From the NCBI GenBank assembly GCA_001769505.1, contig MEOF01000032.1, forward strand, positions 1-64,000: a stretch of 64,000 bases of DNA. The letters run 5' to 3'. The DNA is from Bacteroidetes bacterium GWF2_33_38. Lineage in GTDB: Bacteria > Bacteroidota > Bacteroidia > Bacteroidales > GWF2-33-38. The notes under the pieces were generated by a model. That model ran no database searches, was not told the DNA's origin, and saw only the letters and a program-made list of their open reading frames with translations. Below are positions 31,375 to 57,762 of the stretch, piece after piece. Position 1 is the stretch's first letter. The number at the start of each line of letters is the position of its first letter. The translations under genes were made by a program, and so were the position numbers.

Positions 31375-31382
31375 TAGCTTTG
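31375..31382 (+). promoter_or_regulatory. Candidate -7 element TAGCTTTG upstream of the SpoIIE array
   Basis: Matches TAnnTTTG, 30 nt before ATG 31412; no convincing -33 TTTG at the right distance. Confidence 0.35.
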
Positions 31383-31411
31383 GTTGTTTTTGACATAAAA
31401 AATCAAATCGA

Positions 31412-34400
31412 ATGAAATTTAAGCTGATTATAACAATACCAATATTTTTTTTGATGATTTCGGCAGATATTTTTTCACAGAAATCGAATCTGAAATTTAA
31501 ACATTTGACCAATAAAGATGGACTTTCGCAAAATTCTGGGCGAGCTATCATTCAAGACGACAGAGGTTATATGTGGTTTGGTACCGAAATGGGTTTAGAT
31601 AGATTCGATGGATACTCGTTTTTATCATATACCCATAATCCTCTCGATAAAAATAGCTTACGAAATATTTACATAAATTGTATTGCACAATCGTCGAAAG
31701 GGGAAATTCTGATTGGTACCGATGGAGGAGGACTAAATTGTTTGAATGTTGAAACTAACATTTTCACAAATATTCTGCACGACGAAAACGATAAAAATAC
31801 CATTTGCGGAAACGTAATTTTTGCTGTTTATGAAGACAGAGAGCAAAATTTATGGATTGGAACAACAACCGGATTAAGTAAATACAATCGAGAAACAAAA
31901 TCAGCAAGCAATTTTTACTATAATGAAAATAATGCAACCAGTTTATGCAACGATGTTATATTTGATATAATAGAAGATAAATTAGGGAATATTTGGCTTG
32001 GAACATATTCAGGACTTTGCAAAATAAATAAACAAAATCACAAGATTGAACGAATACCCGAAATTAATTTTTTTGTCCGAAAATTACAGGTAGACAATAA
32101 TGATAACTTATGGGTTTCATCTCCCACTAATGGATTAACATGCTACGATATTAAAAACAATCGTGTAAATACGCAAATTCTAGATTTTGAAAAAATTGCA
32201 AAAATCAGCAATAACAGTATTTGTGATATTATTTTTGAAAACGAAAATAATTGTTGGATTGCCACAACTGATTCTGGGTTGATATATTTCGACAAAACAA
32301 AAAATCTATATTCTACAATCAGGCATAACCCATACATTCAACATAGTATAGCCAGCGATAAAATCCGAAGCATTTATCTTGATAATGCCGGAGTTCTTTG
32401 GGTTGGCACACACTTCAACGGAATAACCTACTACGACACTCATAGCAAACCTTTTAATCATTTTGTTGCAGATAAAGAAAATAAACATTTTTTCAAATCT
32501 ATTACTCCCATCATGCAAGCCTCCGATGGATTAATATACATGGGACTGCAAACAGGCGTTCTTATTTACGATGCAGAAAGAGACAACTCGACATTACTAA
32601 AACACGAACCAACTCAGGCGAATAGTTTAAGCAACGATTTTATCACTTGTTTTTTTGAAGACACAGATGGCGAAGTTTGGATTGGAACCGACGAAGGATT
32701 AAACCTGTATAATCCTAACACAAAAAACATTACTCGTTTTTTTCCCGAAGAAAATAATTCTAATTCACTAGGTGGAGTTTCTGTTTGGGACGTTAAACAA
32801 GATGAAGACGGAATTATTTGGATTGCAACTTGGGGTGGCGGTATTGCCAGCTACAACAAAAAAAACAACAAATTTTCTCGCTATCAACACAACGAAAATA
32901 ATGAGAATTCGCTAAGCGTAAATAATACACATTTAGTATATGAAGATAGCAAGGGATATCTTTGGTTTGGGACATGGGACGGAGGGCTAAATCGTTACGA
33001 TAAAACTAAAAATGAATTTAAAATATATAAACATAAACCTGACGATATAAATAGCTTAGGACACGATATTATCATGTCGGTTTGTGAAGATAAAGATGGA
33101 AATATTTGGATTGGGACATTCGGTGGCGGAATTGACAAATTGGATATAAAAACAAATAAATTTTCACATTTTACCATCGAAAATGGTTTGCCTAGCAACA
33201 CAATTATGGGCATTTTAACCGACCAAAAAAATAACTTGTGGATAACCACAGCAAAAGGAATTTCTAAATATTCAATCGTCGATAATATATTTAGAAACTA
33301 CGATATTTCTGATGGCGTTCAAGGAAACGAGTTCTCGCAGCACGGTTACTTTAAAACTCCAACCAGCAAGTTTCTTTTGTCGGGAGCTGACGGATTCAAC
33401 TTTTTTAACCCTGATAGCATTATCGATAGCAAATACATTCCGAAATTGCTAATCACAAAGTTCAAAGTAAAAAACAAAGAAATTTTGCCAAGCGACAGCA
33501 CATTTCTGAAAGAACCCATTTACAAAACAAAAAACATTGTACTAACTTATCACGAAAATGTTTTTGAATTTGAATTTACAGCTTTTCATTATGCAAATAC
33601 CGATAAAATTCAGTACAAATACATGCTCGAAGGCTTTGAAACAGAATGGAATTATGCTGAAAATTTAAGAATTGCCAAATACACAAATCTTTCGCAAGGC
33701 GAATATGCTTTCAACGTAATGTCGACCAATTGCGACGGTGTATGGTGCGAAAATACGACATCTATACACATTACCATTTTGCCACCATTTTGGAAAACAA
33801 CTTGGTTTTATATAGCATCAATCGCATTTTTAATTTTATTGATTTTTTCTATCATGCGTTTTCGCGAACAAAAATTGCAAAAGGCTAAACGAATATTAGA
33901 ACAAAAAGTAAAAGAACGAACCATTGAAATAGAGCAGCAAAAAGAAGAAATTACAGCTCAACGCGATTCTATTCTAGTACAAAAGGAAGAAATTTTACAG
34001 AAAAACGAAGAAATTACAGCTCAGCGTGATTTAGTTACCGCTCAAAAAAATAAAATTGAACATATCCATCACGAAATTACCGATAGTATTCATTATGCAA
34101 AACGAATTCAAGGTGCCATTTTACCCACACAAGAATTTGCTGAAAAAATTCTTCCAAATCACTTTGTGCTTTTTAAACCAAAAGACATTGTAAGCGGCGA
34201 TTTTTATTGGATGACAAAAGTCGAAAATCAAGTCGTAGTTGCTGTGGCAGATTGCACTGGACACGGAGTACCAGGAGCTTTTATGAGTATGTTAGGTGCA
34301 GCATTTTTAAACGATATCGTTAATAAAGAATATATCACACAACCAGCGGTAATTTTGCGACGATTACGAAAAGAAATCATTCGAGCATTGCAACAAAAAG

Positions 34401-34900
34401 GTGAAGTTGGTGAGCAAAAAGACGGAATGGACATCGCCCTTTGTGCAATTGATTTCGATAATATGAAATTGCAATTTTCAGGAGCAAATAACCCTCTTTA
34501 CATAGTTAAAAGTTTATCAAGTTCATCAAGTAATAAAGTTGAAGAAAACAAAAGTTCCGACTTTATAAACTTTACGAACTTTGAACTTTACGAACTAAAA
34601 GGAGATAAAATGCCAATAGCCATTTATGAACGAATGGACAAATTTACTGTTCACGAAATTGATATACAAAAAGGCGATTGTTTGTATTTGTTCAGCGATG
34701 GTTATGCCGACCAATTTGGTGGTCCAAAAGGTAAAAAATTTATGTCGAAACAATTGAAACAATTATTAATTGACAATTATCAATTACCAATGCAAGAACA
34801 AAAAGAAGTATTGGAAAATGCAATCGAAAACTGGATGAATTACGAAAAAGATATTTACGAACAAATTGATGATATTACCGTGATGGGTATTAAAATTTAA
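31412..34900 (+). CDS. Array gene 1: two-component-type propeller + Y_Y_Y + TM + coiled coil + SpoIIE phosphatase
   Basis: Propeller repeats 'DGLSQNSGRAIIQDDRGYMWFGTEMGLDRFDGYSF'; TM 'WFYIASIAFLILLIFSIM'; SpoIIE motifs SGDFYW, VADCTGHGVPGAFMSMLG, QKDGMD, GANNPL, FSDGYADQFGG, DDITVMGIKI. Confidence 0.9.
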   Translation: MKFKLIITIPIFFLMISADIFSQKSNLKFKHLTNKDGLSQNSGRAIIQDDRGYMWFGTEMGLDRFDGYSFLSYTHNPLDKNSLRNIYINCIAQSSKGEILIGTDGGGLNCLNVETNIFTNILHDENDKNTICGNVIFAVYEDREQNLWIGTTTGLSKYNRETKSASNFYYNENNATSLCNDVIFDIIEDKLGNIWLGTYSGLCKINKQNHKIERIPEINFFVRKLQVDNNDNLWVSSPTNGLTCYDIKNNRVNTQILDFEKIAKISNNSICDIIFENENNCWIATTDSGLIYFDKTKNLYSTIRHNPYIQHSIASDKIRSIYLDNAGVLWVGTHFNGITYYDTHSKPFNHFVADKENKHFFKSITPIMQASDGLIYMGLQTGVLIYDAERDNSTLLKHEPTQANSLSNDFITCFFEDTDGEVWIGTDEGLNLYNPNTKNITRFFPEENNSNSLGGVSVWDVKQDEDGIIWIATWGGGIASYNKKNNKFSRYQHNENNENSLSVNNTHLVYEDSKGYLWFGTWDGGLNRYDKTKNEFKIYKHKPDDINSLGHDIIMSVCEDKDGNIWIGTFGGGIDKLDIKTNKFSHFTIENGLPSNTIMGILTDQKNNLWITTAKGISKYSIVDNIFRNYDISDGVQGNEFSQHGYFKTPTSKFLLSGADGFNFFNPDSIIDSKYIPKLLITKFKVKNKEILPSDSTFLKEPIYKTKNIVLTYHENVFEFEFTAFHYANTDKIQYKYMLEGFETEWNYAENLRIAKYTNLSQGEYAFNVMSTNCDGVWCENTTSIHITILPPFWKTTWFYIASIAFLILLIFSIMRFREQKLQKAKRILEQKVKERTIEIEQQKEEITAQRDSILVQKEEILQKNEEITAQRDLVTAQKNKIEHIHHEITDSIHYAKRIQGAILPTQEFAEKILPNHFVLFKPKDIVSGDFYWMTKVENQVVVAVADCTGHGVPGAFMSMLGAAFLNDIVNKEYITQPAVILRRLRKEIIRALQQKGEVGEQKDGMDIALCAIDFDNMKLQFSGANNPLYIVKSLSSSSSNKVEENKSSDFINFTNFELYELKGDKMPIAIYERMDKFTVHEIDIQKGDCLYLFSDGYADQFGGPKGKKFMSKQLKQLLIDNYQLPMQEQKEVLENAIENWMNYEKDIYEQIDDITVMGIKI

Positions 34901-34902
34901 AT

Positions 34903-37473
34903 ATGAAAAAATATTTTATAATTATAGTAGCATTATTTACTGGTTTAAGCAATAGTTTTGCTCAAAACAAAATTGCGATTGATAGTCTTCAAAATATAAT
35001 TATTTCTGTTGAAAAAGAATGTACTACACTCTGCGAGAAAGACACACTCAGAATAAAAGCATACATAGAATTAAGTTCTTTGATACTAAATAGTCAACCA
35101 GATTCTTCATACAAACTAAAACAAAAAGCTAAAAATCTTTCGAAAGAATTGTTAAAATCTACCAACCTGAACGTCAAAAATGTTTCAGGAATTAAGAATG
35201 ATTTAGCAGCAGCAATTATTGGCTGTGGATTGTATTATGAAATTAAGGGCAAAAATGACAAAGCAATTGAAGCGTACAATGAAGCAATAATAATTTTTGA
35301 AGAAACAAATAATAAAGAAGGCATTTCAAAATGCTTAAACAATATTGCAACCATTAATTTTAGAGCTGGAAAAATTATTGAAGCCTTAAACTATTTTAAT
35401 AAAAATTTGATAATTCTTCAAGAGTTAGGAAATAAGCAAGGTATAGCTGTTACATTGAATAACGTTGCTCATATATGTTTAAATCAGGGAGACGTTAAAA
35501 AAGCATTAGATTATTTTTCAAAAAGCCTTAAAATACTTGAGGAAATTAATGACAAAAAAAGTTTGGCAACTTTACTTAACTCTATAGCAGGAGCATATGC
35601 TGATCAAGGAGACTACGATAAAACTCTCGAATTTATTAACAGAAGTCTATCAATTTTTGAAGAACTAAACGATAAAAAAGGAATTGCAGAAATATTAAAT
35701 AATTTAGGAAATATTTATGAAAAACAAGCTAAAATTGATACTGCAATAATTTATTACAATAAATCATTATTAATCAGACAAGAAATTGATGATAAAAGGG
35801 GTATTTCAATTTGCTTTAATAATATAGCAGGAATTAAACTTAAATTAGCCAATAAAGCTAAATTGGAAAATGATATATCTAAATCTAAATTATTGATAAA
35901 TGAAGCTGAAGATTTTTACAAAAAGAGTTTAGAAATTAAAACAGAGATTAATGATAAAATTGGTCAGGTTAATGTTTTAATAAATCTTGCAAAAATTGCA
36001 AAGTTAAATAATCAATTATTAAACAAAGTTACAATAGTTTCAGAAGCATACAGAATTAGTAAAGATTTAGGTTTTCCAAAAGAGATTCAAAATTCGGCTT
36101 CTTTAATGAAAGATATAGCATTATTAAAGGGAGATATTACCAAAGCTTATTTCTATTTATCAGAAGAAATTACAATGCGAGATAGCATACAAAACGAAGA
36201 AAATTATAAAGCCATCCAAAAACAGCAAGTAAGGTATGAATATGAAAAAAAATCCACAGCTGATAGTATATATCACGCAAAAGCTATGGAAATTAAAAAC
36301 TTGCAAATGGCAAAAATTGAAAAAGAAAAAGAGAATCAACTAATATTGATTTATTCATTCATAGTCGGATTTATTATAATTTTAATTTTTTCAATAGTTA
36401 TTTTTCGTCTATTTATCCAAAAAAAGAAAGCTAACATTAACCTTGCTGAACAAAAATTAAGAATTCAACATCAAAACAATAGCTTAATACAAGCCAATGA
36501 AGAAATTAATGCACAAAAAGAAGAAATTTTAACTCAGCGCGACGAAATTGAAGCACAACGAGATTTAGTTGTGGAACAAAAAAGCCATATCGAAGAAATT
36601 CACAAAGAAGTAACCGACAGTATTATTTATGCTAAACGCATTCAACAAGCAATGTTGCCTGATTTTTCGGTAAGCAGTAATCAGTATTCAATATTCCAAA
36701 AAACTACCGATTACCAATTACCAATTACTGATAACTTTATTTTATTCCGCCCCAAAGATATTGTTTCAGGGGATTTTTATTGGACTGCACAAATTGAAAA
36801 TCATTTGATTTTTGCAGTAGCCGATTGTACCGGTCATGGTGTACCTGGTGCATTTATGAGTATGCTTGGGATTAGCTTCTTAAACGAAATTGTGCATAAG
36901 CAACACGTTATTCAAGCAAATCAAATTTTAAATGAATTGCGAAAAGAAATAATAAATGCCTTACAGCAAAAAGGCGAATCGGGCGAACAAAAAGATGGAA
37001 TGGACATGAGCCTAGTGGTAATTGACAATTCACAATTTGCAATTAATAATTATTGTTACGCCCAATTTGCTGGAGCAAATAATCCGCTTTGGATAGTGAA
37101 AAGTGATAAGTTAAAAGTGAAAAATGAAGAAAATACTAAACTTGATGAACTTTCAACTTTTAACTTTCAACTTGACGAAGTCAAAGCCGACAAAATGCCT
37201 ATTGCTATCTACGAACGAATGGACAATTTTACCAATCATGAAATTGAAATAAACCAAGGTGATTGTTTATATTTGATGTCTGACGGATACGAAGACCAAT
37301 TTGGAGGTCCAAAAGGCAAAAAATTCTTATCCAAAAACCTAAAACAATTACTTTTGGACAATTCACAATTGCCAATGAAGAAGCAAAAAGAAATTTTAGA
37401 AAAAACCATAACAGATTGGATTGGAAATGGAGAACAAATTGACGATATTACAGTATTAGGAATTAAAATTTAA
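34903..37473 (+). CDS. Array gene 2: TPR + TM + coiled coil + SpoIIE phosphatase
   Basis: TPR repeats; TM 'LILIYSFIVGFIIILIFSIVIF'; full SpoIIE motif set. Confidence 0.9.
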   Translation: MKKYFIIIVALFTGLSNSFAQNKIAIDSLQNIIISVEKECTTLCEKDTLRIKAYIELSSLILNSQPDSSYKLKQKAKNLSKELLKSTNLNVKNVSGIKNDLAAAIIGCGLYYEIKGKNDKAIEAYNEAIIIFEETNNKEGISKCLNNIATINFRAGKIIEALNYFNKNLIILQELGNKQGIAVTLNNVAHICLNQGDVKKALDYFSKSLKILEEINDKKSLATLLNSIAGAYADQGDYDKTLEFINRSLSIFEELNDKKGIAEILNNLGNIYEKQAKIDTAIIYYNKSLLIRQEIDDKRGISICFNNIAGIKLKLANKAKLENDISKSKLLINEAEDFYKKSLEIKTEINDKIGQVNVLINLAKIAKLNNQLLNKVTIVSEAYRISKDLGFPKEIQNSASLMKDIALLKGDITKAYFYLSEEITMRDSIQNEENYKAIQKQQVRYEYEKKSTADSIYHAKAMEIKNLQMAKIEKEKENQLILIYSFIVGFIIILIFSIVIFRLFIQKKKANINLAEQKLRIQHQNNSLIQANEEINAQKEEILTQRDEIEAQRDLVVEQKSHIEEIHKEVTDSIIYAKRIQQAMLPDFSVSSNQYSIFQKTTDYQLPITDNFILFRPKDIVSGDFYWTAQIENHLIFAVADCTGHGVPGAFMSMLGISFLNEIVHKQHVIQANQILNELRKEIINALQQKGESGEQKDGMDMSLVVIDNSQFAINNYCYAQFAGANNPLWIVKSDKLKVKNEENTKLDELSTFNFQLDEVKADKMPIAIYERMDNFTNHEIEINQGDCLYLMSDGYEDQFGGPKGKKFLSKNLKQLLLDNSQLPMKKQKEILEKTITDWIGNGEQIDDITVLGIKI

Positions 37474-37490
37474 GAAATACAAGCAACAAA

Positions 37491-40031
37491 ATGAGAGAAA
37501 ATATTTTTAATAACGATTTTAAAAAATTAATATTTATACTGATAATTTTAATCAATATCATTATAATTCAAACTGTTAATGGGCAAAATTGTGATTCATT
37601 GTGGAATATATATAATAATGCAAAAAACGATACCACTCGAATAAAGTTATTAAACGAAGAAATTGGCTATATATACGAAACAATCAATATTGATTCAGCA
37701 ATATTTTTCTACAACAAAGCAATAGCATTAGCCGATAAAAATATAATGCAAAAAACAAAAAACGAAACCACATTTCTTAACCTAAAAGCAACATCTTTAC
37801 GTTATATAGGCATTGTATATATTGACAATGAACAATTTGACAAAGCAATAGAATATTACTTAAAATCATTAAAAATATTTACTCAGATTGGTAATAGCGA
37901 AGGAATGGCGAGCTGTTATACAAATTTAGGAAACGCTTACAATAATAAAAGCGATTATTACAAAGCAATCGAGTTTTTTCTGAAGTCTTTAAAAATTGAC
38001 GAAAAAAGTGGAAATAAAAAAGGAGTTTCAATGTGCTATACAAATATTGGAGCTGTCTACGCTTCTTTAGGAAATTATGATAAGTCAATCGAGTATTTTC
38101 TAATGTCATTAAAAATAAAAGAAGAATTGAAAGACATTAAAGGTATTTCCAATTGCTATAACAATATTGGGATTATTCATAAAGAGCAAGGAAATTACAA
38201 GAAATCTATTGAGTTTTTACTAAAAGCATTAGAAATTGATGAAAAAAATGGAGATCAAATTGGAGCCTCCTATTGCATAACAAATATTGCCAACGTATAT
38301 AAAAATCAAGGAGATGATGACAATGCATTATCGTACTATTTTAAAGCATTAGATTTTTTCGAAAAATATGATGATAAAATAGGAATGACTTCATGTTATG
38401 GTAATATTGGAAGTATGTACCTTCGAAAAGCTGAATATGACAAGGCTAGTGAATTTTTCTTAAAGTCATTAAAAATTAACGAAGATTTAGGATTTAAAGA
38501 GGGAATTGCACAAATATATTTTCAACTCTCATCTCTTAATGTAACTCTCTCGGAACAAAAAAATATTAGTGCCCAAATAAAATTAAATTATGTGAGTAAA
38601 TCTATCGATTACGGACTAAAATCTATGTTTGTAGCACAAGAGATAAAAGCACTTCCTCGTATTTATGATGCAGCAGAAGTATTAATGGAAAGCTATAAAA
38701 TATCTCACAATTACATAAAATATATGGAATATGCAGAAATATTCATTGCAACCAAAGATAGTATGTTTTCGGAAGAAAAAACAAAGGCTCTTACCGAAAT
38801 GGGGACGAAATACGAATCTGAAAAAAAGCAACTTGAAATAGATAAAATGCAAAAACAAAAAGAACTTGATAATAAAACAATTGAGGCTCAGCAAGCGGAA
38901 AATAAAAAGCAACAAATTATCATAGTTTCTGCAATTGGAGGGTTTTTGATAATATTGGTTTTTTCTATAATTATTTTGAGAATGTTTGGTCAAAAACGAA
39001 AAGCAAATATCTTGCTTGCCTCTCAAAATGCTGAAATCACTCAACAAAAAGAAGAAATATCGGCTCAACGCGACGAAATTGAAGCTCAAAGAGACACTGT
39101 TGTTTTACAAAGGGATCACATCGAGGAACAAAATAAAGAAATTACTGACAGTATAAATTATGCTAAACGAATTCAACATGCTGTCCTACCCGACTTCGAT
39201 ACTATGAACATGATACTTGGCGAACATTTCATTTTATTCAAACCCAAAGACATTGTTTCCGGAGATTTTTATTGGGCTACGATTTTCAAAAATTGGCAAA
39301 TATATACTGTGGCAGATTGTACTGGACACGGTGTTCCGGGTGCATTCATGTCGATGCTCGGAATTAGTTTCATTAACGAAATTGTGCGAAAAGAAGAAGT
39401 TTCTCAAGCCAGCCACATACTTGATCATCTCAGAACTAGAATCATTGAATCGCTCAAACAAAAAGGAATTTCGGGCGAACAAAAAGACGGAATGGACATC
39501 AGTATGTGCGTATTAAATTTGGAAACACAAAAACTTCAATTTGCAGGTGCAAATAATCCGCTTTGGATAGTGAAAAGTGAAAAGTTAAAAGTGAATAGTG
39601 ATGAGTTACAAGATGAAAGTTTATCAAGTCCTTCAAGTTATAAAGTAGATAAAAAATCAAATTCCTTTGCTGTCATTCCAAACTCTCCCCCTGTCATTCC
39701 GAACGAACGTGAGGAATCTAACTTTCAACTTTATGAACTAAAGCCCGACAAAATGCCAATAGCCATTTACGAACGCATGGACGAATTCACTAATCATGAA
39801 ATTGAAATAAACCAAGGCGATTGCCTATATTTAATGTCCGACGGATACGAAGACCAATTTGGAGGTCTTAAAGGCAAAAAATTCTTATCCAAAAACCTTA
39901 AACAATTACTTTTGGACAATTCACAATTGACAATGAAGAAGCAAAAAGAAATTTTAGAAAAAACCATAACAGATTGGATTGGAGATGGCGAACAAATTGA
40001 CGATATTACGGTAATGGGAATTAAAATTTAA
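37491..40031 (+). CDS. Array gene 3: TPR + TM + coiled coil + SpoIIE phosphatase
   Basis: TPR repeats; SpoIIE motifs; in-frame 'VIPNEREESNF' repeat peptide. Confidence 0.9.
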   Translation: MRENIFNNDFKKLIFILIILINIIIIQTVNGQNCDSLWNIYNNAKNDTTRIKLLNEEIGYIYETINIDSAIFFYNKAIALADKNIMQKTKNETTFLNLKATSLRYIGIVYIDNEQFDKAIEYYLKSLKIFTQIGNSEGMASCYTNLGNAYNNKSDYYKAIEFFLKSLKIDEKSGNKKGVSMCYTNIGAVYASLGNYDKSIEYFLMSLKIKEELKDIKGISNCYNNIGIIHKEQGNYKKSIEFLLKALEIDEKNGDQIGASYCITNIANVYKNQGDDDNALSYYFKALDFFEKYDDKIGMTSCYGNIGSMYLRKAEYDKASEFFLKSLKINEDLGFKEGIAQIYFQLSSLNVTLSEQKNISAQIKLNYVSKSIDYGLKSMFVAQEIKALPRIYDAAEVLMESYKISHNYIKYMEYAEIFIATKDSMFSEEKTKALTEMGTKYESEKKQLEIDKMQKQKELDNKTIEAQQAENKKQQIIIVSAIGGFLIILVFSIIILRMFGQKRKANILLASQNAEITQQKEEISAQRDEIEAQRDTVVLQRDHIEEQNKEITDSINYAKRIQHAVLPDFDTMNMILGEHFILFKPKDIVSGDFYWATIFKNWQIYTVADCTGHGVPGAFMSMLGISFINEIVRKEEVSQASHILDHLRTRIIESLKQKGISGEQKDGMDISMCVLNLETQKLQFAGANNPLWIVKSEKLKVNSDELQDESLSSPSSYKVDKKSNSFAVIPNSPPVIPNEREESNFQLYELKPDKMPIAIYERMDEFTNHEIEINQGDCLYLMSDGYEDQFGGLKGKKFLSKNLKQLLLDNSQLTMKKQKEILEKTITDWIGDGEQIDDITVMGIKI
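39691..39719 (+). repeat. In-frame copy of intergenic-type repeat CTGTCATTCCGAACGAACGTGAGGAATCT inside array gene 3
   Basis: Encodes VIPNEREES; absent from the nine paralogs. Confidence 0.75.
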
Positions 40032-40035
40032 GCTA

Positions 40036-42435: not shown

Positions 42436-42441
42436 TTGATT

Positions 42442-44670: not shown

Positions 44671-44690
44671 TTGTTAAACATTAAATAATA

Positions 44691-46943: not shown

Positions 46944-46945
46944 GT

Positions 46946-49336
46946 ATGAAAAAAACACTGCTCATTTATTTTATTCTCATAATAAGTTCATTTTCGTTCG
47001 CAGCAAAAATTGATTCATTAAATCAAAAGCTAAACGAAACACATAGCAATATTTTAAAGGCTAAAATTCTAAGAGAAATTTGTCAACACTATTATACAAT
47101 TAGTAATGATTCAGTTGTAAAATATTCCAAAATAATTACTGATTTTACATCGAATGATACCACTACAATGCTTTGCAAAGCTAAATCTTACGAAGATTTA
47201 GCTTATGTCGCAAATCAAAACAAAAAATTTGAAGATGAAGAAAAATATTATTTAAAAGCAATTGAGCTATTTTTAAAATTAGAGAAAAAAAGTGATTTAA
47301 TAAAGAATTATGGAAACTTAGCAAATTTATTCTTACATACAGCACGTTATGACGAAGCTTTAAAATCTTACAGAAAATCATACGAAATTGCTGAAATATT
47401 AAATGATAGTACAAGCATAATTATATCAAATATAAATATTGGAAATGTTTTTAAAGTACAAGGGAAATATAGCGAAGCCATTCAATGCTATATGTTAGCT
47501 TTAAAAAATTCGGAAAAAATTAAAAACGAAAAATATCAGGCAATTAGTTTAAATAGTATTGGCGTCGTACATTGGGGAAATAAGTCGTATGAAAAAGCTA
47601 TCCAATATATTGAAAAATCACTCGATTTAAGAAATAAACTTAAAGATAAAAAAGGAGCTTCTGTCTGCTACTTGAATATTGGGATAATATACGACGAACA
47701 AGGTAAATTTGACGATGCAATTATAAATTATCAAAAATCGTTGAAATTAAAACGAGAAGTTGATGATAAATCTGGAATTTCAAAATGTTACAACAATTTA
47801 GGTCTAAGTCTCAAAAATAAAAAAAACTATAGTCAAGCAATTGAATACTATTTAAAATCATTAGAAATAAAAAGAGAATATAGCGACAAAGAAGGGATGT
47901 CGTTAGTTTTAGGAAATATCTCAAATCTATATAACACAATAGCTGACTCATCAAATATTTCCGCAAGCGAAAAAAGAGAAAATTATCATAAAGCAATCGA
48001 ATTTGGATTAGAATCATTTCAAATTGCAAATGAAATTAAATCAAATCAATCGCTTCTTTTTGCTGCAAATGCAATTATGTATAGTTATACAAAATTAGAA
48101 AATTTTGAAAAAGCTATTGAATTCGCATACAAAGTAATCGCATATAAAGATTCCTTATTTTCTGATGAAAAAACAAAAGTCATTACTGAAATGGATGTAA
48201 AATATCAAAGCGAAAAACATATACTCGAAATAACAAATCTAGAAAAACAATCACTTCTCGACAAAAAAACAATCGAAATTCAAGATGCACTTAGCAAAAA
48301 ACAACAAATCTTGATTTTTTCTTTTATATTCGGATTCATTATTATACTTACGTTCTCGACCGTTTTGTATCGTTTATTTATCCAAAAGAAAAAGGCTAAC
48401 ACTCTTCTTGCACAACAAAATCAAGAAATTTTACAACAAAAAGAAGAAATTATTGCTCAGCGTGATGAGATTTCTAAACACCGAGATTTAGTTGTTGCTC
48501 AAAAAGAGGAAATTGAAGATAGTATAAACTATGCTAAACGAATTCAAGAAGCCGTACTTCCTATAAGCGAGGCTTCGCGTGCGATGTTGGAAAATCATTT
48601 TATCTTATTTCGTCCAAAAGATATTGTATCTGGAGATTTTTATTGGATTGCAAAAATTCAAAACAGAACAATTATTGCCGTTGCCGATTGCACAGGACAC
48701 GGTGTTCCTGGAGCATTTATGAGTATGTTGGGGATAAGTTTTTTAAACGAAATTGTTCGAAACCAAGAAATTGTAAAAGCAAACCAAATTTTAAATAAGT
48801 TGCGGGAAGAAATTATTAATGCCTTGCAACAAAAAGGCGAATTTGGTGAACAAAAAGACGGAATGGATATGAGTCTTATAATAATTAACAATTCACAATT
48901 AGCAATTAAAAATTTTATTCAAGCCCAATGGGCAGGAGCAAATAATCCGCTTTACATAGTGAAAAGTGAAAAGTTAAAAGTAAAAAACGAAGATAATACT
49001 AAAGTTGACGAACTTTCGACTTTTAACTTTCAACTTGACGAAGTTAAGCCCGATAAAATGCCAATTGCCATTTACGACCGAATGAACGATTTTACAAATC
49101 ATGAATTTGAACTTCAAAAAAACGATTGTATATATTTGCTAAGCGATGGATATGCCGACCAATTTGGAGGACGTAATCACAAAAAATTTCTTTCTAGAAA
49201 TCTTAAGCAATTGTTAATTACAAATTGTCAATTGCCAATGCCAGAGCAGAAAATTATATTAGAAACTACTCTTCTAAATTGGATTGGAGATGGAGAGCAA
49301 ATCGATGATATTACCATTGTGGGAATAAAAATTTAA
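46946..49336 (+). CDS. Array gene 7: TPR + TM + coiled coil + SpoIIE phosphatase
   Basis: TPR repeats; full SpoIIE motifs. Confidence 0.9.
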   Translation: MKKTLLIYFILIISSFSFAAKIDSLNQKLNETHSNILKAKILREICQHYYTISNDSVVKYSKIITDFTSNDTTTMLCKAKSYEDLAYVANQNKKFEDEEKYYLKAIELFLKLEKKSDLIKNYGNLANLFLHTARYDEALKSYRKSYEIAEILNDSTSIIISNINIGNVFKVQGKYSEAIQCYMLALKNSEKIKNEKYQAISLNSIGVVHWGNKSYEKAIQYIEKSLDLRNKLKDKKGASVCYLNIGIIYDEQGKFDDAIINYQKSLKLKREVDDKSGISKCYNNLGLSLKNKKNYSQAIEYYLKSLEIKREYSDKEGMSLVLGNISNLYNTIADSSNISASEKRENYHKAIEFGLESFQIANEIKSNQSLLFAANAIMYSYTKLENFEKAIEFAYKVIAYKDSLFSDEKTKVITEMDVKYQSEKHILEITNLEKQSLLDKKTIEIQDALSKKQQILIFSFIFGFIIILTFSTVLYRLFIQKKKANTLLAQQNQEILQQKEEIIAQRDEISKHRDLVVAQKEEIEDSINYAKRIQEAVLPISEASRAMLENHFILFRPKDIVSGDFYWIAKIQNRTIIAVADCTGHGVPGAFMSMLGISFLNEIVRNQEIVKANQILNKLREEIINALQQKGEFGEQKDGMDMSLIIINNSQLAIKNFIQAQWAGANNPLYIVKSEKLKVKNEDNTKVDELSTFNFQLDEVKPDKMPIAIYDRMNDFTNHEFELQKNDCIYLLSDGYADQFGGRNHKKFLSRNLKQLLITNCQLPMPEQKIILETTLLNWIGDGEQIDDITIVGIKI

Positions 49337-49395
49337 CACACCGCATTATTTCAAGAATTATTAATATATTTGGATAAACTTGAATTATATATTTA

Positions 49396-52300
49396 ATGAG
49401 ATATTGGAGCTACATATTTATATTAGTGTTTATATTCTTACAATCAGAACTACTAATTGCCCAATATAAACGAATAGGAATACCCTTTGTTACAAATTTT
49501 TCGCCTATCGAATATAAAGCCGGAAATCAAAATTGGGCAATCACACAAGATTCTAGGGGTGTAATGTATTTTGGAAATATTGCAGGCCTGCTCGAATTTG
49601 ATGGAACATCGTGGAAAATTATTGACCCTGTACTTGCTATTGCATTTGCGAAAGATAAAGATGAAACTATTTTTGTCGGTGGCAGAAGCGACTTTGGGTA
49701 CTTAGCTCCCGATTCAATTGGAAATATAAAATATGTTTCTTTACTTCCTCTTGTTCCAGAACCACATAAAAATGTTGATAATATTTGGTCATTAACTTGT
49801 TCCAACAATAAAGTATATTTTTCAAGTGTTAATGGAAAATTATTCATCTATGAAAATGAAAAAATATCAGTTCTTGAAATCGACAAATATCTTGGAGATA
49901 TAACAATATTTAACAATAAAATATTTATCGAATTATCAAGTGGACTTTATACTCTCAAAAACAATTTTCCTATCGAAATTATAGGTGGCGAACTTTTGAG
50001 TAATGCCAACATTCGCAACATGTTTCCATTCGGCGGTGATACGTTGCTAATTGTTACAAGAAGTGAAGGTTTATTTATCTATCACAACAACAAAATCTCT
50101 TCATGGGAAACAGAAACATCTTCATTTTTGAAAGATTATCAAGTTTACCTTGCAACTCAATTACAAAACGGATATATCGCCTTTGGAACTGTCGAAAGCG
50201 GGGTAATTATTATGGATAAAAAAGGCTTTCCAACGCAACATATTAACCGACTAGGTGGAATGATTAACGATGATCACTGTGGAATTTATACTGATAAGCA
50301 AGGAAACATTTGGAGCGGACTTGAATTTGGAATCTCGTACATTCATGTAAATTCTCCTTGGTCAGTTTTTAATGAACTTGCAGGACTTTCAACAGCGTCG
50401 TTTTTATCGGTCGCACTACACAACAACAGACTATATGCAGGAAATGCTCAAGGTTTATTCAGTAAAAATTGGAAAAACGACGATAACCCTCTCCTTCCCG
50501 ATTGGAATTTTGCCAAACAAGCAGGCTTAGATGCACGGAAAGTCTGGGATATTTTACCAGTTAAAAATGATTTATTATTTAGCAGTAGCAATGTTGGCAC
50601 ATATTGTTTAAATGAAAAGTCGTTCTATAAAATATCCGATTTTATCGCTCCTTTTAAATTATTCAAAGAAAGTTATGGAAATTATATATTAGGTGCTGGT
50701 GAACACGCAGGAATACAAATTTTTGAACAAATTAATGATAAATGGGAATTTGTTTCTGAAAATCAAAAAATTGGATATATAAGTGCAATTGAAGAGGGTA
50801 ACAATCATCACTTTTGGGCTTGTCAAGACGAGCAAACAATATTGGAACTAGAACTCATAAAAGACTCAATATCAATTATTCGTACATACGACACATTATT
50901 TGGACTCCCCTCCGAATCATCGGTTTCAATATTAAAATTATTCGACAAAATTCTTTTTGGAACAGAAAAAGGAATCTATATTTTTGATGAAAACAGTAAA
51001 AAATTTCACCCTTACGATGAAATAAATTCACTTATCGGAGCCAATATTTATATTACAGCAATTAAAAATGACAAGAATGGAAAAGCGTGGTTTTGGGCTT
51101 ACGATAATCTTTACGATTTATGTGGATATTTTGAAAAAGACAAAAATGGAAAATTTTCTTGCAAGCTATTTGATAAACCTGTAAATAAAATAAATAGCTT
51201 CACAAACAATACTTTTTTACCTATCGACGAACACAATATTTTGATTGGTTCGAGCAATAATTTAGTTCACTTCGATCCATCTATTTCAATCGAAAAACCG
51301 TTTTTCAATGCTTTAATCCGGAAAGTTTCTTTACCTATTTCAAACGATTCAATAATTTTTAATGGTGCTTTTCTGAATGAAAAAGGCGAACTTATTAACG
51401 AACAAAATAACCACGAAAAAATTGTAATTCCTTACGAATCTAATTCAATAAAATTCAATTTTTCATCAACATATTACGAAGAATATCAACGTAATACATA
51501 TAGCTATAAGTTAGAGGGTTTCGATACCAACTGGTCTTCATGGTCAAATAAAACAGAAAAAGAATATACCAATCTACCTGAAGGAAACTACGTTTTTATG
51601 ATTAAATCACGTAATTTATACGACTTTGAAACGATACCTGCAGCATATCGATTTTCAATTAATCCTCCTTGGTACAGAACAGCTTTAGCTTTCTTTATTT
51701 ATATAATTTTGTTCATTGCATTTGTTTATTTTATCGTAAAAATCAGTATTCGCAAAATCGAAAAAGAAAAAATAAAACTCGAAAAAATCGTTCAACAACG
51801 AACTGCCGAAGTTGTAAAACAAAAGGATGAAATTGTTCTCAAAAATACTGTTTTGGAACAACAAAAAGAGGAAATATCAACTCAAAACGAGGTGCTTAAT
51901 CAACAAAATGAAGAAATTACTTCTCAACGCGACGAAATCGAATCGCAACGAGATATGGTGCTTAAACAAAAAGAGCATATCGAATTAATAAACAAAGAAG
52001 TTACCGACAGCATTAATTATGCACGTCAAATTCAAAATGCATTACTCCCTAATAATGAGATATCGAAAGAGTTAATTGGCGAACATTTCATAATATACAA
52101 ACCTAAAGATATTGTTTCGGGTGATTTTTATTGGCTAGTTGAAGTCGAAAACATAACAGTAGTTGCCGTGGCAGATTGTACAGGACACGGAGTACCGGGT
52201 GGTTTTATGAGTATGCTAGGCATGTCGTTGTTAAAAGAAATCGTTGTAAAAGAATACATTACCAATCCTGCCGTAATTTTAAGACGATTGCGAAAAGAAA

Positions 52301-52806
52301 TAATTAACTCCTTAGGGCAAACTGGAGCAAGTGGAGAACAAAAAGATGGGATGGATATTGCACTTTGTGCTATTGATTTCAAAAACATGAAATTGCAATT
52401 TTCGGGGGCAAATAATCCGCTCTACATAGTTAAAAGTGAAAAGATAATAGTGAAAAATGAAGAAAATACTAAACTTGATGAACTTTCAACTTTTAACTTT
52501 CAACTTGACGAAGTCAAAGGAGATAAAATGCCTATCGCTATTTACGAACGAATGGACAAGTTTACTCTACACGAAATTGATTTACAAATTGGCGATAGCC
52601 TATATATGTTCAGCGATGGTTTCTCAGATCAATTTGGCGGACCAAGGGGCAAAAAATTTATGTCAAAACAATTGAAACAAATATTAATTAATAATTCTCA
52701 ATTATCAATGCAAGAACAAAAAGAAGTTTTAGAAAAAACTTTGTCAGATTGGATTGACGACGGAGAACAAATTGATGATATTACAATTCTAGGAATAAAA
52801 ATATGA
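49396..52806 (+). CDS. Array gene 8: propeller + Y_Y_Y + TM + long coiled coil + SpoIIE phosphatase
   Basis: 'NWAITQDSRGVMYFGNIAGLLEFDGTSW', 'YSYKLEGFDTNWSSWSNKTEKEYTNLPEGNYVFMIKSRN' (Y_Y_Y); SpoIIE motifs. Confidence 0.9.
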   Translation: MRYWSYIFILVFIFLQSELLIAQYKRIGIPFVTNFSPIEYKAGNQNWAITQDSRGVMYFGNIAGLLEFDGTSWKIIDPVLAIAFAKDKDETIFVGGRSDFGYLAPDSIGNIKYVSLLPLVPEPHKNVDNIWSLTCSNNKVYFSSVNGKLFIYENEKISVLEIDKYLGDITIFNNKIFIELSSGLYTLKNNFPIEIIGGELLSNANIRNMFPFGGDTLLIVTRSEGLFIYHNNKISSWETETSSFLKDYQVYLATQLQNGYIAFGTVESGVIIMDKKGFPTQHINRLGGMINDDHCGIYTDKQGNIWSGLEFGISYIHVNSPWSVFNELAGLSTASFLSVALHNNRLYAGNAQGLFSKNWKNDDNPLLPDWNFAKQAGLDARKVWDILPVKNDLLFSSSNVGTYCLNEKSFYKISDFIAPFKLFKESYGNYILGAGEHAGIQIFEQINDKWEFVSENQKIGYISAIEEGNNHHFWACQDEQTILELELIKDSISIIRTYDTLFGLPSESSVSILKLFDKILFGTEKGIYIFDENSKKFHPYDEINSLIGANIYITAIKNDKNGKAWFWAYDNLYDLCGYFEKDKNGKFSCKLFDKPVNKINSFTNNTFLPIDEHNILIGSSNNLVHFDPSISIEKPFFNALIRKVSLPISNDSIIFNGAFLNEKGELINEQNNHEKIVIPYESNSIKFNFSSTYYEEYQRNTYSYKLEGFDTNWSSWSNKTEKEYTNLPEGNYVFMIKSRNLYDFETIPAAYRFSINPPWYRTALAFFIYIILFIAFVYFIVKISIRKIEKEKIKLEKIVQQRTAEVVKQKDEIVLKNTVLEQQKEEISTQNEVLNQQNEEITSQRDEIESQRDMVLKQKEHIELINKEVTDSINYARQIQNALLPNNEISKELIGEHFIIYKPKDIVSGDFYWLVEVENITVVAVADCTGHGVPGGFMSMLGMSLLKEIVVKEYITNPAVILRRLRKEIINSLGQTGASGEQKDGMDIALCAIDFKNMKLQFSGANNPLYIVKSEKIIVKNEENTKLDELSTFNFQLDEVKGDKMPIAIYERMDKFTLHEIDLQIGDSLYMFSDGFSDQFGGPRGKKFMSKQLKQILINNSQLSMQEQKEVLEKTLSDWIDDGEQIDDITILGIKI

Positions 52807-55337
52807 TTGCACGTTTTCATATTATCTCAATTCTTTTTTTGTGTTTTTTCACAATACAAGCCCAAGATTATTCAACTAAATCAATAGATTCACTAAAATT
52901 ATTACTTGAAAAATCAAAAAATAAAAATGAACAAATCAATTTAAATCACCAACTTTCTGAAATCTACAAGCAAACAAATATTGATTCTGCTTTTGTATAT
53001 CGAAAAAATTCTATAAAAATCAATGAGCAAATATTAAAAAACCAAGCCAACAATCAAGAATTATTATTATTAAAGGCAAAAAACATAAATGCATTGGCTG
53101 TGTTATATTTCAAAAAAGGAGAATATAAAGAATGTCTTAAATATCTACTAAATGCAAACAATATTCTTCAGAGTTTAACAAAAAAAAACGGGACAGATAA
53201 ATACTACAACAGTCTTGTAAAGTTATATGCCGACTTAACTGCCGTTTATGTCAATACTAACGAATATAAACAAGCTCAGTATTATAATATGCAGACCTAC
53301 TTACTTGATAGTATTAACAACAATAAATTCGGAATGTCTGAATATTATTTAAACCTTGGAATAATTGAATACAAGCAAGGAAATTATCAGAAATCAAAAG
53401 ATTTATTTTTGAAAACGTTAAATTATAAAAAACAATACAAAATTGAAGATGGTCTCGACAGAGTATATACAAATGCAGGAAATGCATGTATGTCAATGGG
53501 AGATTATTCTTCATCCTTAGATTTTTACTTCAAAACGCTAAAAATTGACGAAAAAAACAATCTGCCATATGAAATTGCAGGTGATTATAATAGCATTGGA
53601 AACGTTTATTATTACCTTAATGAATTCGATAAATCAATTGAATATTATAAAAAACACAGCGAAATTTGCGTAAAAATAGGAAATACTGATGGATTGGCTA
53701 CATCGTACGGAAATATTGCAAATATTTTAGCCGAATCAGGAAAACTCTCCGAATCGTTAATCTATTATCAAAATGCAATCAATATTTTGAAAAATACAGA
53801 AAACGAAAAACACCTATCCTCTGTTTACAACAATATCGGACAATCTTATAACGAACTTAAAGAATATGGCAAGGCTTTCGAATATTTCAATTTATCTCTT
53901 TCGATAAAAGAAAAATTAAACGATAAACAAGGTATTGCAATTTTATGTGGAAATATTGCCGATATGTATATTCAGAAAAAAGACTATATACTTGCCATAT
54001 CATATGCACAAAAAAGTGTCAAAACAGCTAAAGAAATAGGTTCAATATACGACGAAAATTATTCATATGGTTTACTAACTACGATTTTCGAGCATCTTGG
54101 AAATTATCAAAAATCACTCGAATACTATAAACTTTATAAGGAAACTAATGACTCAATATACAATAGCGAGAAATCTGAACTTATTACCACTATTGAAGCT
54201 CAGTTCGAAAACGACAAAAAACAAAAAGAAATTGAACTTCTAAATAAAGATAAAAAATTAAAAGAGTTTGAATTAGGTGAAAAACAAAAAAAGATTAAAC
54301 AACAACGTATTTTTTCAATCTTCGTTATTTCGGGTTTTATATTAATATCTTTTTTTATGATTCTTTTATATCGACAGTATAAAGCCAAACAAAAAGCAAA
54401 TTTCGAACTAAATTTAAAAAACAAAGAAATTGAACAAAAAAATATTGAAATTACTACACAACGAAACGAAATTAGAAAACACCGAGATCTAGTTCTTGCA
54501 CAAAAAAACGAAATTGAAGGCAGTATTACGTACGCAAAACGAATACAAGAAGCAGTTTTACCAATTAGCGAAATGTCAAGATCAATTTTACCCGAACATT
54601 TTATATTATTTAAACCCAAAGATATTGTATCGGGCGATTTTTATTGGTTCGCCGAAATAAATAATAAAATAGTAATTGCCGTCGCCGATTGTACTGGACA
54701 TGGAGTGCCTGGTGCATTTATGAGCATGCTTGGTATAAGTTTTTTAAATGAAATTGTTCGGAAACAAGAAGTTACAAAAGCCAACCAAATTCTAAACGAA
54801 CTCCGTATAGAAATAATTAATGCATTACAACAAAAAGGCATTTCGGGCGAGCAGAAAGATGGAATGGACATGAGCTTAGTGGTAATTGACAATTCACAAT
54901 TTATAATTAATAATTATTATCACGCCCAATTCGCTGGAGCAAACAATCCTCTTTACATAGTGAAAAGTGAAAAATTAAAAGTAAAAAACGAAGAAAATAC
55001 TAAACTTGATGAACTTTCAACTTTTAACTTTCAACTTGACGAAGTCAAAGGGGATAAAATGCCTATTGCTATTCATTTACGAATGAACGATTTCACAAAC
55101 CATGAATTTGAATTGCAAAAAGGCGATTGCCTATATATGCTAAGTGATGGATACGCCGACCAATTTGGTGGAAAAAATCTTAAAAAATTCCTTTCTCGAA
55201 ACCTAAAGCAATTATTAATTAATAATTCTCAATTACCCATGCATGAGCAGCATAAAGTGCTCGATAAAACTTTGTCAGATTGGATTGGAGATGGAGAGCA
55301 AATTGATGATATTACAATTTTAGGGATTAGAATATAA
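52803..55337 (+). CDS. Array gene 9: TPR + TM + coiled coil + SpoIIE phosphatase
   Basis: Overlaps gene 8 by 4 bp (ATGA); TPR and SpoIIE motifs. Confidence 0.9.
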   Translation: MIARFHIISILFLCFFTIQAQDYSTKSIDSLKLLLEKSKNKNEQINLNHQLSEIYKQTNIDSAFVYRKNSIKINEQILKNQANNQELLLLKAKNINALAVLYFKKGEYKECLKYLLNANNILQSLTKKNGTDKYYNSLVKLYADLTAVYVNTNEYKQAQYYNMQTYLLDSINNNKFGMSEYYLNLGIIEYKQGNYQKSKDLFLKTLNYKKQYKIEDGLDRVYTNAGNACMSMGDYSSSLDFYFKTLKIDEKNNLPYEIAGDYNSIGNVYYYLNEFDKSIEYYKKHSEICVKIGNTDGLATSYGNIANILAESGKLSESLIYYQNAINILKNTENEKHLSSVYNNIGQSYNELKEYGKAFEYFNLSLSIKEKLNDKQGIAILCGNIADMYIQKKDYILAISYAQKSVKTAKEIGSIYDENYSYGLLTTIFEHLGNYQKSLEYYKLYKETNDSIYNSEKSELITTIEAQFENDKKQKEIELLNKDKKLKEFELGEKQKKIKQQRIFSIFVISGFILISFFMILLYRQYKAKQKANFELNLKNKEIEQKNIEITTQRNEIRKHRDLVLAQKNEIEGSITYAKRIQEAVLPISEMSRSILPEHFILFKPKDIVSGDFYWFAEINNKIVIAVADCTGHGVPGAFMSMLGISFLNEIVRKQEVTKANQILNELRIEIINALQQKGISGEQKDGMDMSLVVIDNSQFIINNYYHAQFAGANNPLYIVKSEKLKVKNEENTKLDELSTFNFQLDEVKGDKMPIAIHLRMNDFTNHEFELQKGDCLYMLSDGYADQFGGKNLKKFLSRNLKQLLINNSQLPMHEQHKVLDKTLSDWIGDGEQIDDITILGIRI

Positions 55338-55347
55338 AATAAATACC

Positions 55348-57762
55348 ATGAAAATATTAAGGATAATTATTATTGTACCTTTCTTTTTTATTATTCTGCT
55401 CACAGTTAATGGACAAGATAGAAAAAAAATCGATTCTTTATGGTGCGAATTTCAGAAAGCAAAACACGATACTACGTGCATCCAATTATTTATCGATATT
55501 GGCGTTGAATACGATGCCAAAATGCCTGATTCCGCTTTGTTTTACTACATAAAAGCAATGAATTTAACGGACAAAGTTATAAGCTCATTCCCTGATAATA
55601 AAAACAAGCAAAAAAGTAAAGATGAAAAAAAGTTAGATTTTGGAAAAATTAGACTTTCTGCTTTTAAAGCCATCTCCCTTCGAAATGTAGGAAGTGCATA
55701 CACTAACTTAGGTAATTATAATTTAGCAAATGATTTTTTTATAAAATCATTAAAAATATACCAAGAAATCAAGGATGAATATGGAATATCAAAATGTTAT
55801 TTAAACATTGGCACTATTCACTATCGTCAAGGAACTTACGACAAAGCAATTAGTTATTTTATTAGATCGTTACAAATTTATGAAAAATTAGGCTTTAAAA
55901 AAGGCATAGCCGACGGTTCAACTACTGTAGGACTTATTCATTATCAACAGCATAATTATGATAAAGCCTTAAAATATTTTGAAAATTCTTTGAAAATTTA
56001 TGAAGAATTAAATGAAAATAGAGGAATTTCAATCTGTTACATGAATATTGGCAACGTGTATAAAGATCAAGGCTATCATGAAAAAGCGATTGAATATTAT
56101 TCAAATTCTATAAAAATTGCTGAGAAAATAGGCGACAAACAAGGAATTTCAAGGTGCTACACAAATATGGGAATTGTTTTTTATAATCAAAAAAATTATG
56201 AAAAGGTTATTACTTATTTTCTAAAATCATTAAAAATTAAAGAAGAACTCGGTGATAAATATGGAATCGCAGTGGTGTGGGGAAATATAGCAGGATTACA
56301 CGTTACTATTGCCGATTCAGTGTCTTATACAAAAAATGATAAGAATGCACATTACAATGAAGCAATTAATTATGGACTTAAAGCCTTTTACGTTGCAAAA
56401 GAAATTAATTCAATTTCATTGCAAAATGAAATTGCTGTATTTCTTAAAAATGCATATAAATCACTTGGAAATTCATCTAAATCTTTGGAATACGCCGAAA
56501 TATTTATAGCAACACAAGATAGTTTATTCTCCGAAAGAAAAAACAAAGCATTAGCTGAAGTAGAAGTTAAATATGAAGCCGAAAAGAAACAGCTACTGAT
56601 TGACAATCTTAATAAAGAAAATGCTCTCAAAAAGGCAGAACTTATTCAAAGCGAAGAAAAACGTAGCAAACAACTTATACTCATATATTCTTTTGTAGTC
56701 GGATTCATTATCATTCTTGTTTTTTCCAGCATCATTTTTCGTTTATTCATGCAAAAGAAAAAAGCAAATACTGTACTTGCTTTACAAAAAAATCAAATCG
56801 AAATTCAAAATTCAAAATTAAATCAAGCTAACGAAGAAATCACTGCACAACGAGACTTAGTCACAGAACAAAAGGAACATATAGAAAAAATTCACAAAGA
56901 TGTAACCGACAGTATTAATTATGCAAAAAGAATCCAAGAGGCTATTTTACCTATTACCAAAGAAACAAGGTCTATTTTAGGTGAACACTTTATTTTATTT
57001 AAACCTAAAGATATTGTCTCTGGTGATTTTTATTGGTTATATAAAAGAGATAGTATTTTATATGTAGCTGTGGCAGATTGTACAGGGCATGGTGTACCCG
57101 GAGCCTTTATGAGTATGCTAGGAATTAGTTTTTTAAATAAAATCGTTCAAGAAAATAAAAAAATACAAGCCAACCAAATCCTTGATAAATCACGTAGCGA
57201 AATAATACTTGCTCTTAAACAAGGTGGTTTAGGTGGAGAACAAAAAGATGGAATGGACATAGCAATATGTATAATAGATACAAAAAATAATATTATCCAA
57301 TTTTCAGGAGCAAATAACCCAATTTACATCATAAAGTCCAAAGGTGGAAATATTTTAAAAGAATTTTCCGTTAAATCAACCTCATGCTGTTATAAAGAAA
57401 ATACGAATGAACTCATTGACAATTCCAAATCAAGTATTTTAAACCCCGTAAATTCTATATTTTATGAAATAAATGCAGATAAGGAACCAGTCGGAATTAG
57501 CCCTCAAATGAAGCCTTTTACCAATCATGAATTTCAACTTCATTCTGGAGATTGCCTTTATTTAAGAACCGATGGCTTTCAAGACCAATTTGGTGGACCT
57601 AAAGGAAAAAAATTCCTTTCTAAAAATCTAAAGCAATTACTAATTACAAATTGCCGATTGCCAATGCCAGAACAGAAAATTATGTTTGAAACTACACTTA
57701 CAAATTGGATTGGAGATGGTGAACAAATTGACGATATAACCTTATTGGGAATAAAAATATAA
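55348..57762 (+). CDS. Array gene 10: TPR + TM + coiled coil + SpoIIE phosphatase
   Basis: TPR repeats; SpoIIE motifs with variant 'KEPVGISPQM' and 'RTDGFQDQFGG'. Confidence 0.9.
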   Translation: MKILRIIIIVPFFFIILLTVNGQDRKKIDSLWCEFQKAKHDTTCIQLFIDIGVEYDAKMPDSALFYYIKAMNLTDKVISSFPDNKNKQKSKDEKKLDFGKIRLSAFKAISLRNVGSAYTNLGNYNLANDFFIKSLKIYQEIKDEYGISKCYLNIGTIHYRQGTYDKAISYFIRSLQIYEKLGFKKGIADGSTTVGLIHYQQHNYDKALKYFENSLKIYEELNENRGISICYMNIGNVYKDQGYHEKAIEYYSNSIKIAEKIGDKQGISRCYTNMGIVFYNQKNYEKVITYFLKSLKIKEELGDKYGIAVVWGNIAGLHVTIADSVSYTKNDKNAHYNEAINYGLKAFYVAKEINSISLQNEIAVFLKNAYKSLGNSSKSLEYAEIFIATQDSLFSERKNKALAEVEVKYEAEKKQLLIDNLNKENALKKAELIQSEEKRSKQLILIYSFVVGFIIILVFSSIIFRLFMQKKKANTVLALQKNQIEIQNSKLNQANEEITAQRDLVTEQKEHIEKIHKDVTDSINYAKRIQEAILPITKETRSILGEHFILFKPKDIVSGDFYWLYKRDSILYVAVADCTGHGVPGAFMSMLGISFLNKIVQENKKIQANQILDKSRSEIILALKQGGLGGEQKDGMDIAICIIDTKNNIIQFSGANNPIYIIKSKGGNILKEFSVKSTSCCYKENTNELIDNSKSSILNPVNSIFYEINADKEPVGISPQMKPFTNHEFQLHSGDCLYLRTDGFQDQFGGPKGKKFLSKNLKQLLITNCRLPMPEQKIMFETTLTNWIGDGEQIDDITLLGIKI

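Follow-up and report, generated by a model that had tools for sequence, protein, structure and literature searches.

We analyzed a tandem array of ten phosphatase genes in a stretch of DNA from Bacteroidetes bacterium GWF2_33_38 (the window; positions 1-64000 of a 126.6-kb contig, from a genome of 3.93 Mb in 70 contigs that is 99% complete). The array, at 31412-57762, probably encodes ten membrane-anchored SiaA-type sensor phosphatases that act on SiaC proteins encoded elsewhere in the genome, with a TerB-ABC-ABC2 exporter as the candidate effector. It would then represent the Sia partner switch in a new and much enlarged form, with its specificity and output predicted from sequence.

Structure of the array

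The ORF list and Pfam searches identify ten intact plus-strand open reading frames (ORFs) with PF07228 matches of 49-67 bits (cut-off 25). The intergenic gaps are, from 5' to 3', 2, 17, 4, 0, 20, 2, 59, -4, and 10 bp. An earlier note, made from the sequence of the window alone, had described ten consecutive same-strand ORFs with gaps of at most 60 bp and one 4-bp overlap, and the coordinates agree with it. The features are as follows.

31048-31411, plus strand: 364-bp gap 5' of ORF1, the sole long gap adjoining the array (ORF coordinates)
31412-34900, plus strand: ORF1, Reg_prop beta-propeller, Y_Y_Y, transmembrane (TM) segment, coiled coil, and SiaA-type PP2C (Pfam; NCBIfam SiaA, 183.5 bits; TM and motifs)
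34903-37473, plus strand: ORF2, TPR, TM, coiled coil, and SiaA-type PP2C (Pfam, motifs, NCBIfam)
37491-40031, plus strand: ORF3, TPR, TM, and SiaA-type PP2C (Pfam, motifs, NCBIfam)
40036-42435, plus strand: ORF4, TPR, TM, and divergent SiaA-type PP2C of a separate catalytic clade, lacking the long loop (Pfam, alignment, tree, NCBIfam)
42436-44670, plus strand: ORF5, TPR, TM, and SiaA-type PP2C; start called as TTG, with the probable start at the in-frame ATG two codons on, at 42442 (Pfam, motifs, NCBIfam)
44691-46943, plus strand: ORF6, 7TMR-DISM with DISMED2, coiled coil, and SiaA-type PP2C (Pfam, motifs, NCBIfam)
46946-49336, plus strand: ORF7, TPR, TM, and SiaA-type PP2C (Pfam, motifs, NCBIfam)
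49396-52806, plus strand: ORF8, propeller/Y_Y_Y, TM, and SiaA-type PP2C (Pfam, motifs, NCBIfam)
52803-55337, plus strand: ORF9, TPR, TM, and SiaA-type PP2C, overlapping ORF8 by 4 bp (Pfam, motifs, NCBIfam)
55348-57762, plus strand: ORF10, TPR, TM, and SiaA-type PP2C (Pfam, motifs, NCBIfam)
34511-57477, plus strand: variable loop insert of 27-171 bp in each PP2C domain, from 34511-34603 in ORF1 to 57337-57477 in ORF10 (DNA patches common to copies)

The Pfam calls reproduce the division of N-termini given in the earlier note: seven TPR sensors (ORFs 2, 3, 4, 5, 7, 9, and 10), two of the Reg_prop/Y_Y_Y type (ORFs 1 and 8), and one 7TMR-DISM with DISMED2 (ORF6). The TPR part of six ORFs (2, 3, 4, 7, 9, and 10) also matches NCBIfam FimS. 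Most array ORFs have an N-terminal hydrophobic segment. A single hydrophobic segment lies 5' of a charged coiled coil in all ORFs but ORF6, which has several. All ten share the helix SIxYAxxIQxAxLP, with S at the second A in ORF4. The C-terminal SpoIIE-type domain of the earlier note is present in every ORF, with the metal-site motifs DCTGHG, DGM[D/E], [S/T]DG, and DDIT intact; its motif list needs a small correction for ORF8, which reads PGGFMSMLG.

No plus-strand terminator-like site was detected in any of the nine gaps; therefore co-transcription of the ten genes is likely. The 364-bp gap 5' of ORF1 is the probable promoter region. Counts of promoter-like sites equal those of shuffled sequence in the first half of the array and reach 100 vs. 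74 in the second half, mostly within genes. Unusual regulation within the array was considered and dropped, as the gaps are free of terminator-like sites and the surplus promoter-like sites are mostly intragenic.

Type of the catalytic domain

The array catalytic domains are SiaA-type and not RsbU/SpoIIE-type, as indicated by profile, fold, NCBIfam, and tree. A profile of the ten domains had a single sequence match in PDB, 6K4E, which is SiaA of Pseudomonas aeruginosa (E 3.4e-44). The same structure was the best fold match (E 5.8e-22, TMt 0.87) of an AlphaFold2 (AF2) model of ORF3 (pLDDT 76, pTM 0.77); RssB, the next match, SpoIIE, and RsbU followed at 1e-10 or weaker. The NCBIfam SiaA model (NF038263) aligned over the linker and PP2C domain of all ten proteins with 146-184 bits. 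Of two RsbW-linked controls, one had no match to this model and the other scored 87 bits.

The array profile scored 185-324 bits on phosphatases adjoining siaB/siaC and 30-48 bits on those adjoining rsbW/STAS. A 98-row tree separates, with support 100, 93 Sia-side rows (the array, P. aeruginosa SiaA, and all siaB/siaC-linked phosphatases) from five RsbU-type rows, namely the RsbW/STAS-linked phosphatases and an RsbU-like protein of this genome. The tree has long branches and is taken together with the profile scores; in neither does the array group with the rsbW/STAS-linked phosphatases.

Phosphatases of this genome and its relatives

The genome contains 39 SpoIIE ORFs, of which 38 are Sia-type; the remaining one is the RsbU-type phosphatase (contig C1, 408 aa), which clusters with the RsbW-linked ones. 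The genes are mostly singletons. The largest cluster is the array, and the sole other tandem set is a pair on contig C50. The array size is far beyond chance. Sensors outside the array include TPR (some with PAS), propeller/Y_Y_Y, one more 7TMR-DISM, PAS, GAF-PAS, and a receiver domain.

Two further genomes of the family also have arrays, which makes an assembly artefact unlikely. Eight to nine genes are arrayed in G002:C25 and six in G002:C148; in G001, the arrays on C254 and C156 have five and four. Array size in related genomes, which the earlier note proposed to check, therefore ranges from four to nine. Among named relatives, Bacteroidetes/Bacteroidales metagenome genomes are the nearest, and GWA2_31_9 ranks first at 58% identity. 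At two G002 loci (L302:5911-10688 and L309:3569-8695), neighbouring array genes have near-identical catalytic domains with tree branches of 0.02-0.03 and 0-0.14, which by sequence is very recent duplication or conversion.

Candidate partners

Local hidden Markov models detected no STAS, RsbW, SiaB, or SiaC gene in the 64-kb window, as the earlier note had said for STAS and HATPase partners. Genome-wide, we found six SiaC proteins and five SiaB proteins; two of the SiaB proteins are double. The generic STAS (PF01740) and HATPase_c_2 (PF13581) searches did not list them. Stand-alone STAS (C11:8386-8736, with the DSSG phospho-site motif) and RsbW (C47:66872-67306) occur once each. The former adjoins a ribonuclease Z-like gene and the latter a ybeY-like gene, with these neighbours named from their own sequence.

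Because the array catalytic domains are SiaA-type, their targets are probably SiaC phosphoproteins opposed by SiaB kinases. In P. aeruginosa, T68 of SiaC is phosphorylated by SiaB and dephosphorylated by SiaA (PMC7647112). At the aligned position, every one of the six SiaC proteins of this genome has Thr or Ser, as do 55 of 57 SiaC frames, and the NT(S)SS site is kept.

The distribution across the order was analyzed in 41 genomes, mostly one per family. At least five SpoIIE matches are found in 20 of them, and SiaB and SiaC are encoded in precisely these 20; in the remaining 21 the number of matches is 0-2. Co-distribution of SpoIIE (at least five), SiaB, SiaC, and the TerB-ABC proteins described below is significant (Fisher p 4e-12, kinship ignored). 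Within the 20 genomes, the number of SpoIIE matches listed (highest values at least about 61) correlates with that of SiaB (rho 0.85) and SiaC (0.54), and does not follow RsbW (0.09) or STAS (-0.20).

Gene linkage points the same way. Array-type sensor phosphatases, tandem sets included, adjoin siaB and/or siaC in many relatives (L356, L359-L363, and L249). Two examples are provided by this genome: a GAF-PAS phosphatase gene is the first in a siaA-siaB-siaC operon (C65:79825-76280), and a TPR phosphatase gene is convergent with a siaBB-siaC pair (C65:64220-68019). The STAS and RsbW proteins were rejected as partners: both genes are present, yet the profile scores, the tree, the linkage of genes, and the copy numbers all speak for other partners. 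Here the earlier note, which had framed the partners as STAS and RsbW, did not hold, although its notion of a multi-input cluster directed at few off-locus targets stands. Convergence on few targets is likely, given the ratio of 38 phosphatases to five kinases and six SiaC proteins.

Candidate output

SiaC of P. aeruginosa, when unphosphorylated, switches on the diguanylate cyclase SiaD (PMC8457831). No GGDEF match was found in this genome, with eight control genomes positive; hence SiaD is absent, and a cyclic di-GMP (c-di-GMP) output of the SiaD kind is ruled out here. The gene 3' of siaC encodes a protein of 1030 aa that combines TerB, ABC ATPase, and ABC-2 membrane domains. The next two genes encode a putative lipoprotein (301 aa) and a secreted-looking protein (146 aa), for which Pfam and PHROGs gave no family. 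The order siaA-siaB-siaC-TerB/ABC-lipoprotein-small protein is conserved in at least 12 genera. All 20 genomes with the Sia set, and none of the other 21, have TerB-ABC homologues; of 68 such homologues, 28 map no more than 2 kb from siaB, against an expectation of 0.7. Near siaB, genes for a TerB-ABC-type exporter, a lipoprotein of 301 aa, and a small secreted-looking protein were observed together in two paralogous sets, L159:11811-16265 and L164:1548-6071.

Because of this co-occurrence and the conserved operon, the TerB-ABC-ABC2 exporter is the best candidate for the output of the Sia switch. DUF1987 (SiaC) proteins have been suggested to modulate neighbouring proteins as a general rule (PMC8457831), which agrees with the siaC-exporter linkage. 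The non-canonical output envisaged in the earlier note is therefore plausible, with no GGDEF protein encoded and an ABC exporter gene linked, although control of the exporter is predicted.

The following mechanism may be proposed. A TPR, propeller/Y_Y_Y, or 7TMR-DISM sensor, probably periplasmic, would detect an input, and the signal would reach a cytoplasmic PP2C dimer through the TM segment and the coiled-coil switch helix. Once active, the phosphatase would strip the phosphate, placed by SiaB kinases, from the conserved Thr/Ser of a SiaC protein encoded elsewhere. Many sensors would thus feed few shared SiaC proteins opposed by few SiaB. Unphosphorylated SiaC would then bind its effector, the best candidate being the exporter.

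Evolution of the array

Among nine ORFs, the catalytic domains share 57-81% identity; that of ORF4 is 43-48% identical to the rest. Identity among the TPR-class sensors is 22-40%. The catalytic domains of ORF6 (7TMR) and ORF2 (TPR) are sisters (support 98/91), and the approximately unbiased (AU) test rejects trees in which all 7TMR genes (p 0.0005), or all propeller genes (p 0.0002), form one clade. Sensors were thus exchanged among catalytic domains, in line with the swapped sensor modules of the earlier note.

One origin of all ten genes is disfavoured (AU p 0.0125), with ORF4 in another catalytic clade; a clade of nine of the ten is not rejected (p 0.24). The origin of the ORF4 domain in another clade means that simple serial duplication does not account for the whole array. 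Recent whole-gene duplication was ruled out, since silent sites of the catalytic domains are just 49-72% alike, though the copies have short tracts in common. Identity along the domain is patchy (between ORF5 and ORF6, for example, 85-98% just 3' of the loop and mostly 42-76% 5' of it), and exact DNA tracts of 61-71 bp join ORFs 2, 8, and 9. These two observations suggest local gene conversion within the array.

The PP2C loops, predicted to be disordered in the AF2 model of ORF3, consist of low-complexity or repeat-like coding DNA that is almost exactly common to copies. One loop-like query had its ten best matches in the SpoIIE genes of this genome, and five short and weak ones elsewhere. The ORF3 loop includes GTCATTCCGAACGAACGTGAGGAATCT (39693-39719), which resembles an in-frame translated copy of a dispersed intergenic repeat and occurs once in the window. 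At the start of the ORF6 PP2C domain, a palindrome with 15-bp arms (46169-46201) replaces the usual ILGEHF residues. Outside the array, a minus-strand gene (26878-28584) combines a partial SprA_N domain with a weak, below-cut-off Por_Secre_tail domain, an odd combination for a component of the type IX secretion system.

Alternative explanations

Several observations weigh against SiaA-type phosphatases acting on SiaC. The array has no adjacent siaB or siaC, so that the substrate is assigned from family membership. Co-distribution and copy-number correlations were computed with kinship ignored. The P. aeruginosa SiaA branch is long in the tree. None of the ten proteins reaches the 700-bit full-length equivalog cut-off of NF038263, as they match its C-terminal part only; this is expected for proteins with different sensors, and makes the array SiaA-type rather than SiaA itself. 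Finally, in one relative (G039 L347:1916-3595) the gene of an RsbU-like, C1-type 427-aa phosphatase lies directly 5' of siaC, so the RsbU and Sia switches may cross-talk, and the branches are perhaps not fully separate. At eight other C1-type loci no such arrangement was seen.

A classical anti-sigma switch, with the array phosphatases acting RsbU-like on the single STAS protein opposed by the single RsbW and about 39 inputs, would correspond to the textbook role of SpoIIE-type PP2Cs, and the phospho-site motif of the STAS protein is kept. It is nevertheless improbable: profile, fold, and tree place the array domains with SiaA, a separate RsbU-type phosphatase is encoded in the genome, and SpoIIE copy number follows neither RsbW nor STAS. 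Genomes with an rsbU-rsbW-STAS operon (G014, G025, and G030) have one SpoIIE gene, and two genomes with 12 SpoIIE matches each (G016 and G020) have no HATPase_c_2 match at E<=1e-9. We also give little credence to a private target for each phosphatase outside the Sia and STAS families, with independent pathways gathered at one location. The very different sensors and the lack of an adjacent substrate gene fit such a scheme, and six SiaC proteins allow some partitioning. However, the catalytic domains of nine ORFs are far more alike than the TPR-class sensors, and the exact DNA patches of up to 71 bp fit a common surface kept alike.

A serious possibility, though not the favoured one, is that the substrate is SiaC and the output is something other than the exporter, for instance transcription or a different enzyme. 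No TerB-ABC gene adjoins four of the six SiaC genes (C45, C49, C21, and C62) or the siaBB-siaC pair (C65:64220-65735), and 40 of the 68 TerB-ABC homologues are away from siaB. Against this stand the perfect co-occurrence in 41 genomes and the conserved operon. A broader proposal is that the Bacteroidota Sia switch is a lineage-specific alternative to two-component signalling, in which tandem duplication, exchange of sensors, and local gene conversion would have produced dozens of sensor phosphatases. These would act on few SiaC proteins, which in turn would gate the exporter directly, the output being neither a sigma factor nor c-di-GMP. As a whole, we consider this proposal rather doubtful.

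If the array indeed consists of SiaA-type phosphatases acting on SiaC, the large Bacteroidota SpoIIE-type sets, which had no assigned partners in the literature we found, are tied to the SiaB/SiaC switch. This link explains why generic STAS and HATPase_c_2 models miss the partners, and the output pointed to is an exporter instead of c-di-GMP or a sigma factor. With 38 phosphatases, it would be an extreme case of many-to-few signalling. Among the papers searched, none links Bacteroidota phosphatases with SiaB/SiaC, and a single one uses the term DUF1987.

Comparison with known systems

The closest known system is SiaABCD of P. aeruginosa (phosphatase, kinase, phosphoprotein, and diguanylate cyclase), a switch described in connection with Pseudomonas biofilms. 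The two are alike in the catalytic domain and switch-helix region, the SiaB and SiaC families, the Thr/Ser phospho-site, and the siaA-siaB-siaC order, seen in the C65 operon. Unlike SiaABCD with its one phosphatase, this genome has 38 of the Sia type and tandem arrays; the sensors are TPR, propeller, 7TMR-DISM, PAS, or REC, and a TerB-ABC exporter gene stands at the place of SiaD in the operon, with no GGDEF protein encoded.

The RsbU/RsbW/RsbV and SpoIIE/SpoIIAB/SpoIIAA switches share the PP2C superfamily and the partner-switch logic. However, the array belongs to a different phosphatase branch, the kinase here would be SiaB/DUF6272 and not HATPase_c_2, and the substrate SiaC and not STAS. 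An RsbU/RsbW/STAS set is also present in this genome, separate and scattered over contigs C1, C47, and C11.

The layout of ORF6 (sensor, coiled-coil linker, and PP2C) is the same as in the 7TMR-DISM and S-helix receptors joined to PP2C (PMC1592074), a study that covers linker and domain combinations and neither arrays nor Sia partners. The Reg_prop/Y_Y_Y hybrid kinases and FimS-type TPR kinases of Bacteroidota have the same sensor modules as the array; there the output is a histidine kinase, whereas here it is a Ser/Thr phosphatase.

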